Below the pieces are notes generated by a model, which was not told where the DNA came from, did no database searches, and saw only the letters and a list, made by a program, of their open reading frames with translations. The position numbers were made by a program, and so were the translations under genes. Shown piece by piece: positions 7,222-39,994 of a stretch of DNA of 64,000 bases (the first letter of the stretch is position 1; every line of letters begins with the position of its first letter). Where the stretch lies: positions 1 through 64,000 of the forward strand of contig NZ_JANGCE010000009.1 in NCBI RefSeq assembly GCF_024462775.1, read 5' to 3'. The stretch is from Butyricicoccus faecihominis (lineage in GTDB: Bacteria; Bacillota; Clostridia; Oscillospirales; Butyricicoccaceae).

Positions 7222-7710
7222 ATGCAGCTTCCTAAAAGAAAGCATCCACGCCTGAAAGCCTACGATTACAGCAAAACCGGCGTGTATTTCCTGACGATCT
7301 GCACCAAAAACAAGGTCCATTCGCTGGGCGAGATTGTAGGGCGGGGTGACCTCACCCCGCCGCTCACCGTGCTCACGGCAACCGGCAAAAAAGTATGCAA
7401 AATAATTCAGACCATGTCCGAAGCATATCATAATGTTCGTTTACTGCATTTTGTCGTCATGCCAAACCATATACATATTCTGCTGGAACTTTCTCCGGAT
7501 GTCGGCGGGGTGGGGTCACCCCGCCCTACCCAAACGTCGGTGCCGAATATTATAAAAGGATTTAAGGCCATGACGCGGCGTGCTTGCGGCAGCAGCCTAT
7601 GGCAAACCGGCTATTACGACCATATCATCCGCAATGACGCGGACCTGCAAACTCATTGGACATATATCGACGAGAACCCCGCAAAATGGGCGGACGACGC
7701 GTATTTCTAA
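7222..7710 (+). CDS. REP-associated tyrosine transposase (RAYT, Y1/IS200-like)
   Basis: The 162-residue protein has the HUH signature MPNHIHIL, the N-terminal YFLTICTKNK strand and a Tyr-containing GYYDHIIRND helix near the C-terminus, as in RAYT proteins that nick single-stranded REP DNA. Two inserted segments, GRGDLTPP and GGVGSPRP, are encoded by copies of a GTAG-plus-palindrome repeat at 7336-7361 and, inverted, at 7504-7529. Despite these insertions the frame is open. The start follows GGTGGAG. It stands alone between terminators. Similar GTAG-hairpin sequences occur at 13554 and 20966, which suggests it is (or was) the mobiliser of these repeats. Confidence 0.85.
   Translation: MQLPKRKHPRLKAYDYSKTGVYFLTICTKNKVHSLGEIVGRGDLTPPLTVLTATGKKVCKIIQTMSEAYHNVRLLHFVVMPNHIHILLELSPDVGGVGSPRPTQTSVPNIIKGFKAMTRRACGSSLWQTGYYDHIIRNDADLQTHWTYIDENPAKWADDAYF
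7336..7361 (+). repeat. GTAG-plus-palindrome REP-like repeat inside the RAYT gene, copy 1
   Basis: GTAG is followed by a near-perfect palindrome (GGCGGGGTGA / TCACCCCGCC). It is translated in frame as part of the RAYT protein. Copy 2 at 7504-7529 is its reverse complement with one mismatch. Confidence 0.8.
7504..7529 (-). repeat. GTAG-plus-palindrome REP-like repeat inside the RAYT gene, copy 2
   Basis: This is the reverse complement of copy 1 at 25 of 26 positions, so the two copies form a head-to-head pair inside one reading frame. It encodes GGVGSPRP. Confidence 0.8.
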
Positions 7711-20969: not shown

Positions 20970-21396
20970 GACGGGGTGACCCGCCAATGTCATTTAGTTA
21001 AGAGTGAGTAAGTACTAATTGGGTAGCAAATGCCCTTTGGGCTTCCCCCGACGAGGCATATGCGTAAACTTAAGCAATGCGCGGGGGCCAAAGACCGTTT
21101 TCTAGCCTTCCCCCCACGAGGGGAAGGTGGCGCGCGCCGTAGGCGCGTGACGAATGGGGGGCGTAACGAATAGCGCACTTTAAGGCAGCCACGCACATCA
21201 TGCTGCCCATTCATGCGCCCCCCATCAGTCACGGCTTCGCCGTGCCAGCTTCCCCTCGTCGGGGGAAGCCCAAAGAGCGCTCTATGCATACGCTGCTTCA
21301 GTTTACGCATATGCCCCGACGAGGGGAGGCCAAAGGGCGGCGCTATGTTGTATAGGAGTCAGTTATTCTTAACCGAAGGACATTGGTGACCTCACC
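20966..21396. repeat. Composite palindromic repeat element
   Basis: The 431-bp non-coding block starts with GTAGGACGGGGTGACC and ends in GACATTGGTGACCTCACC, an inverted-repeat pair shared with 27335-27511. The inside holds further nested palindromes: TTCCCC/GGGGAA blocks at about 21040, 21120 and 21255, and CATATGCGTAAAC against GTTTACGCATATG at 21056-21068 and 21301-21313. It separates the dipeptidase region from cysK. Confidence 0.8.
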
Positions 21397-36163: not shown

Positions 36164-38032
36164 ATGGTACGAAAGCTGAAACGGGCGCTCGCGCTGCTGA
36201 CGGCGGCCCTGCTGCTCGGCACAATGGCCCCCTTGGCGCTTGCGGCGGGAAACGGGCAAACGCCGCTGTATGAATACCTTGGCTATGGATCCGAGCAGGC
36301 CTTTTTGAACGAATGGAACTGGTCGGAAAACGAGGAGGCAACCTACGACTGGTGGGAGGATACCTACCAAAACTTTGTGCTGCAATGCACGGAGGATCCG
36401 CAGCTGATGGTGGATTGGTACGGCTATACGCTGCCCACCGCGGCGGAGGTGAACGGCGTGACGGTGGAGGAGCTGCCGAAGGCCGCGGCGTGGGAAATGA
36501 CCGAGCAAAAATACGAAGAGACCTACGGTTGGAATTATGGCTGGGAAGAGCCCGAACCGCCCACGCTTTCCGTGCAGCTGATGGGGGAGACGGTCGCCTT
36601 TCCGGACGCGCAGCCCGAAACCGTGAACGGGCGCACGATGGTGCCGCTGCGCGCCATGGTGGACGCCCTGCATGGCGAGACCGGCTATGACGGCGGGGCG
36701 TCGTCCGTCACCGCCAAGGTGGGGGAAACGACCGTGCGCTTCGCGCTCGGCGGCGATAAGCTGTACTGGACGGGCCCGGCGGACAAAGCGCCGGAAGGCC
36801 TTGTAAAGGACGGCGCCGAAAGCTACCTGCCTATGGATGTACAACCCTATGAAAAGTCCGGCCGCACCTATGTGCCGGTGCGCTTTTTCGCGGAGGCGTT
36901 CGGCCTGACCGTCCAGTGGGACGAGTGGCAGCAGACGGCGGTGGTTTACGATAAAGCCGCGCTGATCGATTCCATCGACAGCCGGTTTACCGTGCTCAAC
37001 CAATGGCTCGCGGCGCAGCCGGCGCGGGATACCGATCAGGCGATGCGTATGGCGGCCACGATCGCGGTCACCTATACGACCTTCAACTCGATCGATGGGG
37101 ACGAGAGCTTTCCGCTGAACGGCACGCTTTCCGTGCTGACAGAGGGCCAAAGCTACCAGATGGATCTAAAGCTCGATCTGTACGCCATGGTACGCATGCT
37201 GATCGACAAGGCAGCGCCGTATGTGGACGAGGAGCTTTCCAAAGCGATCGACCTATTAAAGGGCGATCTGCAAAACGCTACCTTTGAAATGATCTATAAC
37301 GCGGATGAAAACACCCTGTATTTCCGCTGCCCGCTGCTGCTCAAGACGATCGGACTGGCCGAACCCGACATGACGCCCAAGGAAGGGACGGACGCTTGGG
37401 TGCGGATCGAGGACGCGATCGACCAAAGCCTGCTCGACGCGGCGGGGCTGTATAACCGCATCGCGGAAAACGGCGGCAAGCTGACGATCGGCGCGCTGAT
37501 CGTCGAGCCAAACGAAGCCAGCTTTAAAAAGTGGTTCGCGGCCTCGTTCTGGCAGAGCGCGAACGATGCGGCGGATGGCTTGGAGCTGTTTTTGGGCGAC
37601 GGCAAATTTACCAGAAACGGCGACGCCTATACCGCCCGCTTTGACGAGACCCCGCAGGAGGGCGCCGAAGGTCTGGCGGGCATGCTGGTAGACCTTGATA
37701 TCGCCTATGTGAAGGGTTCGGTCGTGCTGAATACCCGAACCGGCGTGGCGAGCGGCACGCTTGCGGTGCGGCAGGATACGTATTGGAGAGATCAGCTGCT
37801 GACCTATGAATTTGAGGGCGACGCGCAAAACGCGGCCTTTAAAATGAGCATACACACGAACAACACCGGCAAGCTTGAAATGGAAATGCAGATCACGGAA
37901 AAGCCCGCCTCCGGTTCTCCGGCCGCCCGGCCGCCGGAAAACGACAAGGTGATTGATCTGAACGATTGGCTCGGTTTGCCGGAAGCGGAGCCGGAAAGCC
38001 AAAACAACGTGATCGCCGTCATGGTGCCATAG
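36164..38032 (+). CDS. Secreted protein with copper amine oxidase-like stalk domain
   Basis: The 622-residue protein has a clear signal peptide (basic start, hydrophobic core to about residue 26, ALA cleavage region). A Trp/Tyr-rich acidic section follows (WNWSENEEATYDWWEDTYQNF in part), then a Cu-amine-oxidase N-terminal-like domain (about 135-265: NGRTMVPLRAMVDALHG...YVPVRFFAEAFGL). The rest is a long beta-rich extracellular domain without known motif. These stalk domains are common in cell-surface proteins of Clostridia, and no enzyme activity is implied. GGAGG precedes ATG 36164. Monocistronic, with its own terminator. Confidence 0.82.
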   Translation: MVRKLKRALALLTAALLLGTMAPLALAAGNGQTPLYEYLGYGSEQAFLNEWNWSENEEATYDWWEDTYQNFVLQCTEDPQLMVDWYGYTLPTAAEVNGVTVEELPKAAAWEMTEQKYEETYGWNYGWEEPEPPTLSVQLMGETVAFPDAQPETVNGRTMVPLRAMVDALHGETGYDGGASSVTAKVGETTVRFALGGDKLYWTGPADKAPEGLVKDGAESYLPMDVQPYEKSGRTYVPVRFFAEAFGLTVQWDEWQQTAVVYDKAALIDSIDSRFTVLNQWLAAQPARDTDQAMRMAATIAVTYTTFNSIDGDESFPLNGTLSVLTEGQSYQMDLKLDLYAMVRMLIDKAAPYVDEELSKAIDLLKGDLQNATFEMIYNADENTLYFRCPLLLKTIGLAEPDMTPKEGTDAWVRIEDAIDQSLLDAAGLYNRIAENGGKLTIGALIVEPNEASFKKWFAASFWQSANDAADGLELFLGDGKFTRNGDAYTARFDETPQEGAEGLAGMLVDLDIAYVKGSVVLNTRTGVASGTLAVRQDTYWRDQLLTYEFEGDAQNAAFKMSIHTNNTGKLEMEMQITEKPASGSPAARPPENDKVIDLNDWLGLPEAEPESQNNVIAVMVP

Positions 38033-38045
38033 TTTGTAAAAAACG

Positions 38046-38092
38046 CTGTAGCAGGATGATTCCAGAGGGAATCGCCTGCTGCGGCCTTTTTT
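38046..38092 (+). terminator. Intrinsic terminator of the stalk-domain gene
   Basis: A long imperfect stem (GCTGTAGCAGG...CCTGCTGCGGC with inner GATTCC/GGAATC) followed by T6. Confidence 0.82.
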
Positions 38093-38169
38093 ATGTACCG
38101 CGCCGGTTTTGATGAACCGCATGAGCGAGGGCGGCCGCGACCGGTGCCGCGCTGATTAACATATTCGAT

Positions 38170-38442
38170 TCAATCCTTCGCTTGCCGCTTGCCGCGCGCA
38201 TGGGTCAGCAGGATCACCAGCCGCGCATGCGCTGCTTCAACACTTTTTTGCGGCTTTGCGCCGGTCAAATAGCCCAGCGCTTGGTTCCATTCGCTGAGCG
38301 CCGTGGTATCCGGAGGGGCCGCCAGCAGTATTTCGATGAGCCTCTTTTGCTGGCCACTGTCCATATCATGCAGATCGGATACGCGGGCAGCGCCGCACTG
38401 TTCGGCTAGCTTGTCCAGCAATGATCTTTTATGGATCGCCAA
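38170..38442 (-). CDS. Small helical protein next to the putative invertible segment
   Basis: The 90-residue protein from TTG 38442 (GGGAGG 8 nt upstream) is mostly helical and charged (LLDKLAEQCGAARVSDLHDMDSGQQKRLIEILL in part: LIEILLAAPPDTTALSEWNQ). No family is recognised. The frame is open further upstream. In the present orientation the extension runs into a segment that is part of the inverted-repeat-bounded region. If that region were inverted, the frame would join in phase to ATG 38694 (MHERRQQARQNIDFVQKRRE...). No good promoter reads into it at present. Confidence 0.6.
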   Translation of the reverse strand: MAIHKRSLLDKLAEQCGAARVSDLHDMDSGQQKRLIEILLAAPPDTTALSEWNQALGYLTGAKPQKSVEAAHARLVILLTHARGKRQAKD

Positions 38443-38467
38443 ATCGTTCACCTCCCGCCGTTTCTGT

Positions 38468-38484
38468 ACAAAATCAATATTTTG
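38468..38484 (-). repeat. Left inverted repeat of the putative inverton (IRL)
   Basis: ACAAAATCAATATTTTG on the plus strand; its exact reverse complement is at 38721-38737. The repeat is itself a dyad (CAAAAT / ATTTTG) around a 4-bp asymmetric centre, the layout of a tyrosine recombinase core site. Confidence 0.7.
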
Positions 38485-38642
38485 TATAGAAGCGTCCCTT
38501 GACGGCGACAGAAGAAAACACAGAACATGTAAAAAACCGTCACATCCTGTCGTGATAAGGAGCGAAAGGGCGCAACAAATGCAGGCCGCAAAAGGAAAGC
38601 GCGCGCGACCTGTGTTTACTGTGCCTAAAATTCCCATATGAC

Positions 38643-38671
38643 TTGCGGTTTTTGACGAAACATGCTATAAT
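38643..38671 (+). promoter_or_regulatory. Promoter inside the putative inverton, facing the recombinase 3' end
   Basis: TTGCGG (38643-38648), 17 bp, TGC-TATAAT (38666-38671), extended -10. In the present orientation it would only make an antisense transcript into the recombinase gene. Confidence 0.65.
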
Positions 38672-38720
38672 TCTATGAAAATATGTATTTCAAATGCATG
38701 AGCGCCGGCAGCAAGCAAGG

Positions 38721-38737
38721 CAAAATATTGATTTTGT
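38721..38737 (+). repeat. Right inverted repeat of the putative inverton (IRR)
   Basis: CAAAATATTGATTTTGT, exact reverse complement of IRL, lies directly after the recombinase stop codon (on the minus strand). Confidence 0.7.
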
Positions 38738-39583
38738 CTAACTGACCAGCCCCAAACGATCCAGCTGGCGGATGTGCTCCGCGCCGGTGGTGAGAAGGTA
38801 GAGCCGCGTGGTTTCGATGCTGGAATGGCCCAGCGTATCCGCTAGACGCGTAATGTCTTTGCAAGCCTTATAAAAGGTCGTGGCGAACAGGTGCCGCAGA
38901 TTGTGCGGAAAGACCTTGCTTGGCGCTATTCCCGACAGTGAGCACAGGCCCTTCATTTCCGCCCAAATTTGCCGCCGGGATACGCGGCTTCCGCTTCTGG
39001 TGAGGAAAACTTCGCCCGAAGCGATCTTTTCTTTTTGGGCGTATTTCAGCAGCTTGCGGCACAACTTGGCGGATAGCAGGATTGTGCGCATTTTGCCTTT
39101 CAATGAAATTTCCGCCCGGCCGCGCCGAGCCGCTTCCACGGTGATATACCGCACCTCGCTTACCCTGATCCCTGTGGCCGCCATCGTTTCCATCAGCAGG
39201 GCCAGCCGGTCGCGGCCTTGGTTGCGGGCGGTTTCGACCAGCCGGTCGTACTCCTGTCGACTAAGCTCTCTTGCGGGATCGCGAAACATCCGCCGTTGGA
39301 GCCGCAGGAATTTGACGCGGCATTCCGTCCAGCCTGTGAAGCGCAAAAACGCGTTCAGCGCGGCCAGCATGGAATTCACCGTGACTGGGGCGTATCCCTC
39401 GGTCAGAAGATTTTCCTTCCATCCGGCGGCGGCTTCCTTTGTCACCGGCTCGCCGTTCAGCCACAGGGAAAAAGAACGCAGGTCGCGCAGATATTTTTCC
39501 CGTGTGCCGGGGCTGCGTTCCTCGGCTTGCAGGTATCCGCCGAAGGCGGCGGCCTGCTGTAGGGTTACATAACGGTCGTTCAT
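38738..39583 (-). CDS. Orphan tyrosine recombinase
   Basis: The 281-residue recombinase has a SAM-like N-terminal core-binding domain (about 10-95) and a complete catalytic set: R140 (ATGIRVSE), K164, H227 and R230 (HNLRHL), H253 (LGHSS) and nucleophile Y262 (RLYLL). It has no phage or plasmid genes beside it. An exact inverted-repeat pair starts immediately beyond its stop codon, so it is the likely enzyme of the putative inverton. It differs from housekeeping XerC/D in being next to its probable site. Its ribosome site GGGAGG is locked in a hairpin followed by T6, directly before ATG 39583. Confidence 0.9.
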   Translation of the reverse strand: MNDRYVTLQQAAAFGGYLQAEERSPGTREKYLRDLRSFSLWLNGEPVTKEAAAGWKENLLTEGYAPVTVNSMLAALNAFLRFTGWTECRVKFLRLQRRMFRDPARELSRQEYDRLVETARNQGRDRLALLMETMAATGIRVSEVRYITVEAARRGRAEISLKGKMRTILLSAKLCRKLLKYAQKEKIASGEVFLTRSGSRVSRRQIWAEMKGLCSLSGIAPSKVFPHNLRHLFATTFYKACKDITRLADTLGHSSIETTRLYLLTTGAEHIRQLDRLGLVS

Positions 39584-39590
39584 AAAAAAT

Positions 39591-39635
39591 GCCTCCCTAA
39601 TACGATAATATCCTTATTTTATCGTGTAGAGAGGC
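39591..39635 (-). promoter_or_regulatory. Leader hairpin hiding the recombinase ribosome site (attenuator-like)
   Basis: In the minus-strand mRNA, GCCTCTCTACACGATAA pairs with TTATCGTATTAGGGAGGC around a 10-nt loop, followed by ATTTTTTATG. The 3' arm contains the ribosome site and the T-run ends at the start codon, so the structure could stop both transcription and translation of the recombinase. Confidence 0.7.
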
Positions 39636-39658
39636 ATATATACGATTTTTCGTCCGCT

Positions 39659-39994
39659 TTAGGAGCCGTAATCCTCCAGCAGCTTTGCCAATGCTTCGGC
39701 GTCCGACAGGATCACGCCCCTGTTCAGCGCGTCGCGGTCGGCCTGAGGAAGCGAGCGCGTGTCGATTTCGGTGCGCATGAGCAGCGCGCCGTCGCGGTAA
39801 ACGGTAAGCCGTCCGTCCTCGCTTACCGCTGTGTAGCTTACCGGCACCGCCTGTTCGCTAAGCGCCGGAACGGCGGTGAACCAAGCGCGGGCGGCGAAAA
39901 AGGTAAAAATAAGCGCGGCGGCGCAGGCGGCCAGCGCGATCCGGCGGCGGCGTTTCAGCTGCTGCATCGCCAGCATGTAAAAGCCCTGCATCAT
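39659..39994 (-). CDS. Membrane-anchored BofC C-terminal-like protein
   Basis: The 111-residue protein has a basic start, one membrane helix (about 18-36) and an extracytoplasmic domain with the BofC C-terminal pattern: DGRLTVYRDGALL, DTRSLPQADRDALNRGVILSD and the final LLEDYGS. BofC controls processing of pro-sigma-K during sporulation in Bacillus; small anchored relatives are common in Clostridia with no tested role. The start follows AAAGGAAGTG. It is 76 bp upstream of the recombinase gene, same strand. Confidence 0.68.
   Translation of the reverse strand: MMQGFYMLAMQQLKRRRRIALAACAAALIFTFFAARAWFTAVPALSEQAVPVSYTAVSEDGRLTVYRDGALLMRTEIDTRSLPQADRDALNRGVILSDAEALAKLLEDYGS

Follow-up and report, generated by a model that had tools for sequence, protein, structure and literature searches.

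Genes and repeats at the locus

The window, that is, the whole 64,000-nucleotide stretch of DNA that was analysed, contains a tyrosine recombinase gene and a small gene, both on the minus strand, with a short inverted repeat between them. The features of this locus are the following.

38170 to 38442, minus strand: small gene, presumed target of the switch; 90 aa with a TTG start; product predicted to be all-helical, from a conserved family (A1) with no database match
38451 to 38455, minus strand: GGAGG, ribosome-binding site for the small gene, 8 nt upstream of the TTG start and not within the putative invertible segment
38468 to 38484, plus strand: putative left recombination arm, within a 20-bp dyad at 38467-38486; centre CAAT at 38475-38478
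38485 to 38720, no strand: putative invertible segment, 236 bp; homologous segments elsewhere lie in both orientations
38643 to 38671, plus strand: predicted promoter TTGCGG-N17-TATAAT with TG extension; 49 bp separate the end of the -10 from the arm that the promoter faces
38721 to 38737, minus strand: putative right recombination arm, crossover centre 38727-38730; location conserved in relatives
38738 to 39583, minus strand: tyrosine recombinase, 281 aa, presumed invertase (PF00589, 1.5e-24; PF02899, 3.5e-8)

Invertons are recognised by exact or near-exact inverted repeats flanking a few hundred bp, and here the two arms agree at 17 of 17 positions around 236 bp. As the earlier note had described, the sequence ACAAAATCAATATTTTG at 38468-38484 on the plus strand returns as its exact reverse complement at 38721-38737, the first copy lying upstream of the small gene and the second immediately 3' of a complete recombinase gene; no base separates the right arm from the stop codon of that gene. 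The asymmetric 4-bp centre reported for each copy was also found: each arm is a dyad, CAAAAT-CAAT-ATTTTG, which on the left can be extended to TACAAAAT-CAAT-ATTTTGTA (38467-38486). Matches to the 17-mer with up to three mismatches were confined to these two arms in the window (0.09 expected), as were matches with no or one mismatch across the 3.69-Mb genome. Exact 17-bp inverted pairs spaced by 60-500 bp were absent from 40 Markov-shuffled windows, and the same search found one further exact pair in the window itself, of 22 bp, at 21035/21254. This pair (21035-21056 and 21254-21275) belongs to GC-rich palindromic repeats that lie between two genes, and looks like part of a palindromic repeat family rather than a switch. 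Separately, a 16-bp inverted pair at 7336-7351 and 7514-7529 surrounds GTAGGGCGGGGTGACC-type repeats; the gene that holds it, identified by eye, reads like a REP-associated (Y1-type) transposase. RNA folding of the segment was no better than that of shuffles in either direction, and we therefore claim no terminator for the window; perfect hairpins with a stem of at least 9 were likewise absent from the segment.

The recombinase carries a Phage_integrase domain and a SAM-like N domain, and retains all six catalytic residues, R140, K164, H227, R230, H253 and Y262; the gene is complete, as had been claimed. Its product scored below the cut-offs of all 11 NCBIfam models that it matched. The best matches were XerA/XerC/XerD-like, all of them below their equivalog cut-offs (131.3 bits against 220, 108 against 329.6 and 106.6 against 335.15), and the tyrosine-type DNA invertase models PRK09870 and PRK09871 gave 23.3 bits against 221 and 24 bits against 222. 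The description of this recombinase as an orphan had to be given up, because it belongs to a large family: matches at E <=0.001 occurred in 91 of the 99 genomes searched, its own included, many of them being remote recombinases of 25-35% identity, with a close full-length group at about 40-71%. Scanning species genomes yielded 24 recombinase loci, labelled mostly as Oscillospiraceae and other Clostridia, while loci with odd labels, for example Mailhella, may be mis-binned contigs. The viral contigs searched contained a single relative, which ended at a contig end. Genome G094 has 15 copies that are 40-45% identical to the window recombinase, several of its switches being nearly identical (L038, L095-L107), and a prepilin-like gene lies downstream in six of its loci. 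Just upstream of the window recombinase start, at 39602-39625, there is a dyad, ACGATAA-N10-TTATCGT, which is a unique match in the window and a possible operator controlling expression of the recombinase.

The small gene is followed by a convergent gene (36164-38032) encoding a copper-amine-oxidase N domain. Family A1, to which its product belongs, gave 21 matches in 12 of 87 family genomes, and 12 aligned members share invariant S22, D23, L24, L35, W52, L56, Y58 and L75. No match was found for the small protein in PHROGs, only single-member, chance-level matches were seen in Pfam (best E 0.042), and no relative was found among solved structures (best E 0.058). An AlphaFold model built on an alignment of five was all-helical with a mean pLDDT of 81; Foldseek with this model gave a best E of 3.2, so that no fold was assigned.

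Conserved architecture and orientation of the segment

For comparison, 78 distinct homologous recombinase loci were collected, of which 70 with at least 450 bp downstream were kept and 8 dropped, near-identical paralogs of genome G094 being counted as individual loci. In 57 of the 70, an inverted pair that spans 150-420 bp begins no more than 100 bp from the stop codon, compared with 5 of 1400 Markov shuffles, where the search took inverted pairs only and the shuffles were resampled from dinucleotide transitions rather than being exact dinucleotide shuffles. No arm pair reached threshold in the other 13 loci, some of which have a single site after the stop codon (for example L066, L076 and L079); in L058 an arm pair is present below threshold. 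Five loci (L059, L063, L025, L090 and L091) have three recombination sites in place of two, one arm being doubled, and such an arrangement could permit deletion or alternative segments.

The second hallmark of an inverton is a promoter within the segment that flipping would aim at a gene, and this is present in the window in the form of a motif shared with relatives, TTG-N17-TGnTATAAT. The extended -10, TGCTATAAT, lies at 38663-38671 and the promoter points towards the recombinase and away from the small gene, in agreement with the direction given in the earlier note. That note had also called the promoter good, a description that holds in the sense of conservation among relatives, since a strict sigma-70 consensus scan of 37900-39900 listed no promoter; the -35 (TTGCGG, 38643-38648) is weak, with 3 of 6 consensus bases, and the motif becomes visible only through comparison with relatives. 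Across 59 segments (58 arm-pair loci plus L152, described below), a TTG-N16-18-TGnTAnnnT promoter was found in 38, against a mean of 2.5 and a maximum of 7 in 100 shuffled sets, and was absent from 21. It faces the recombinase (OFF) in 28 segments, the downstream gene (ON) in 9 and both ways in one, and 24 of the 37 one-way promoters end 44-52 bp from the arm that they face. Perfect hairpins with a stem of at least 9 occurred in 18 of the 59 segments and in 14 of 295 shuffles.

Both orientations occur among the homologous loci. On a recombinase tree of 37 rows, the 9 ON rows require a minimum of 9 changes of orientation, so that no shared change is required between any two of them; this was a quick tree in which 16 of 34 inner branches are weak, and the count has no shuffled control. 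Direct comparison of 43 pairs of similar segments, for which the arms of L091, L084, L063 and L025 were set by hand, gave 34 pairs on the same strand and 9 on opposite strands. Loci L056 and L060, on two contigs of one MAG, have segments that are 79% identical over 162 bp and lie in opposite orientation.

The earlier note had suggested looking for the opposite orientation in related genomes. Both orientations occur among homologous loci (28 OFF, 9 ON); at the window locus itself a single orientation was seen. Genome G099, a single contig labelled as the same species, has a locus 99% identical to that of the window over 5 kb, with arms and promoter hexamers unchanged, in the same OFF orientation; an opposite orientation there was thus rejected, and no inverted copy of the window locus was found in the two species genomes, both of which are OFF. 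Neither the recombinase gene nor the small gene is disrupted in either genome: the former differs by 6 synonymous and 3 non-synonymous changes over 846 bp, and the latter by 2 and 1, respectively, over 267 bp. Two further recombinase loci common to these genomes differ by indels beside the stop codon, with no switch inversion seen, and one 70-bp reverse match at such a locus arises because a recombination site is doubled there. A lone site with two mismatches in the second genome (G099:C1:1062110) has no partner site. That genome also carries a second module, L152, with a recombinase 71% identical to that of the window, arms ACAAAATCGATAATTTG and centre CGAT. Its promoter is in the ON orientation, aimed at a gene for a 1373-aa exported protein, and a 16-bp perfect hairpin stands between recombinase and promoter; no counterpart was present among the five recombinase matches in the window's own genome, a 56-contig draft.

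These results bear on whether the window locus was once an inverton and has since become locked OFF or begun to decay, with an intact recombinase and a segment that no longer flips, or whose flipping became irrelevant with the loss of the large target gene. The OFF state of both species genomes would fit such a history, as would the missing hairpin and the lack of a surface-protein gene behind the small gene, compared with surface proteins (clusters c0 and c5, below) in 18 of 78 loci; among the 78, many are cut short and 10 gave no downstream protein. However, the arms are identical to each other and unchanged between the two genomes, both genes are intact with the base changes given above, and OFF is also the commoner state in relatives. 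We consider a locked or decaying switch unlikely, though its probability is not negligible.

Crossover centres and the proposed switch

The arms of homologous loci were next compared at their centres. The 4-bp centre was identical in both arms of a locus in 53 of 55 cases, the analysis covering 55 of 58 pairs after exclusion of L060, L082 and L073, which had a dyad score below 10. Centre bases were alike at 99% within a locus and 36% between loci, compared with 94% and 72%, respectively, for half-site bases in the same 55 pairs; the seed matching of arms biases towards identical arms, and it is the contrast between centre and half-site that is free of this bias. Site-specific strand exchange by tyrosine recombinases requires identity of the exchanged region, and operators have no such requirement.

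Among the findings that the earlier note had named as counting against a switch is evidence that the two repeats are merely operators of a repressor. Operators, too, are typically dyads of this size, and the arms do flank a promoter, so that a repressor might bind them, possibly one that controls the recombinase, with no recombination taking place. An operator would need neither the locus-specific match between the two centres nor the opposite orientations of homologous segments, and the arms lie at the end of the recombinase gene, far from the promoter core; we regard this explanation as very improbable. That the arms are attachment or resolution sites of a Xer/dif-like system or an integrative element is scarcely credible, for although the best NCBIfam matches are Xer-like they fall well short of their cut-offs, the pairs (inverted ones being the only kind searched) enclose a promoter, and the neighbouring genes include those for a penicillin-binding protein, a BofC-like protein and a polysaccharide deacetylase.

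We conclude that the window locus is very probably a promoter inverton that has a dedicated tyrosine recombinase, and that the sequenced DNA represents its OFF state. The phase-variable arrangement proposed in the earlier note is supported by the architecture common to homologous loci, by the crossover centres and by the occurrence of both orientations among those loci. We infer that this copy flips at the present day, that the adjoining recombinase is the agent and that the promoter is active. The recombinase would bind the half-sites ACAAAAT/ATTTTGT in both arms, bring the arms together and exchange strands over the 4-bp centre that they share, CAAT, and this exchange would invert the 236 bp between them. 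As sequenced, the promoter would fire at the recombinase gene, antisense to its 3' end, leaving the small gene OFF. After inversion, transcription would exit across the left arm and, with a leader of about 80-90 nt, the 90-aa protein would be made (ON).

Two uses follow from the conserved layout. Dozens of copies, each with a recombinase and its own crossover sequence, amount to natural parallel experiments on how a tyrosine recombinase recognises its own sites among others. As a practical rule, scanning just past the stop codon of such recombinases would give candidate phase-variable surface-protein operons, and the rule serves genomes for which there is no read evidence.

Downstream genes, possible feedback and known systems

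Clustering of 136 downstream proteins, up to four per locus and drawn from 68 of the 78 loci, revealed several families behind the switch. Large proteins with signal-peptide-like starts, judged by eye, form clusters c0 (14 loci) and c5 (4 loci), and prepilin-like proteins, also recognised by eye, form c4 (7 loci). Cluster c1 consists of repeated treble-clef DUF4379 proteins (10 loci; PF14311 in the one scanned), c2 is the small A1 family (9 loci by BLAST, 14 by profile), c3 comprises recombinase-like proteins (9 loci) and c7 is HU (2 loci; PF00216 in the one scanned). Single AP2-like and HTH-like downstream proteins scored under Pfam cut-offs, and in L141 a sortase has been added behind the switch. 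The first downstream position is occupied by 27 of 28 c1, c2 and c3 genes and by 5 of 18 c0 and c5 genes. The catalytic tyrosine was present in none of the 7 c3 proteins that were judged, each of which has at most one of the six residues; L061, which is cut short, and L079, which is gapped, were left out of this check. A catalytically degraded recombinase-like protein is the first downstream gene in L069, L066, L088, L057, L062, L065 and L064. From gene content it appears that in relatives the same switch often heads operons whose last genes encode large exported surface proteins. The small gene of the window stands alone before a convergent gene, and the switch may therefore control the small protein alone.

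Twelve A1 neighbourhoods (L137-L148) were inspected. A homolog of the window recombinase was present in 3 and no recombinase match was found in the other 9, and in one of the 3, L142, a serine recombinase precedes the A1 gene in its operon, with a surface-type protein downstream and a recombinase-like gene. The initial idea that the small protein has this tyrosine recombinase as its sole partner is weakened by these 9 neighbourhoods and by the serine recombinase of L142. In L146, by eye, an A1 gene is likewise close to a serine recombinase gene. Judged by the company of its genes, the A1 protein would often be a component of phase-variable surface operons, and our best guess is that it is DNA-binding or regulatory, because it occupies the place of DNA-binding-type proteins.

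A possible, still tentative, extension of the promoter inverton reading is that genes of the switched operon act back on the switch that controls them, the first genes being interchangeable state-dependent factors. Such factors would bind the arms or the segment and set the duration of the ON state; the first-gene families of many relatives, encoded ahead of surface proteins and comprising unrelated DNA-binding-type families (treble-clef DUF4379 proteins, recombinase copies without their catalytic residues, an HTH or AP2-like protein) as well as A1, would all serve in this way, and the 90-aa protein of the window would represent a new class. Should ON-state genes (broken recombinases, zinc-finger proteins, A1) indeed influence the switch, they would reveal how a flip-flop keeps a memory of its state.

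The kind of switch described here is already published. A study of a defined gut community reports 1837 invertons, among which inverton group 139 has a previously unpublished repeat motif, is dominated by Clostridia (32 of 33 invertons) and is strongly linked to tyrosine recombinase (invertase) group 35 (PMC11892184, Microbiome 2025). Orientation ratios shift in the reads of Clostridium sp. D5 and Intestinimonas butyriciproducens, and in the latter species the short arms lie about 227 bp apart (PMC11892184), close to the 236 bp in the window. Membership of group 139 with invertase group 35 would call for a tyrosine recombinase within 5 kb of a Clostridia inverton; in the window the recombinase adjoins the segment. 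The window locus likely belongs to this group, whose repeat motif is not given in the main text of PMC11892184, and the portions of that text available describe no crossover rule, small-gene family or broken recombinase copies. What would be new is the possible state-dependent feedback. Literature searches lying outside most subscription journals and bioRxiv returned, in the text portions available, nothing on broken recombinases or A1 in such switches, and no such feedback in what they covered on DUF4379 and inactive recombinases in phase variation.

Comparison can also be made with better-known switches. The RecV switches of Clostridioides difficile resemble the window locus in having a site-specific recombinase and short inverted repeats, and they have a regulatory segment before a surface or motility gene. 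RecV is one recombinase that acts on several distant loci; in the family of the window, unlike this, each recombinase adjoins its own arm pair. The fim switch, with FimB and FimE, has a tyrosine recombinase adjoining an invertible promoter, as in the window, but the window recombinase differs from the fim type in scoring 23-24 bits against the cut-offs of 221-222 of the two tyrosine-type DNA invertase models. The Mpi system of Bacteroides and the invertons found there with PhaseFinder are invertible promoters before surface-structure genes, like the relatives of the window locus, although they belong to a different phylum and probably differ in promoter and recombinase group.
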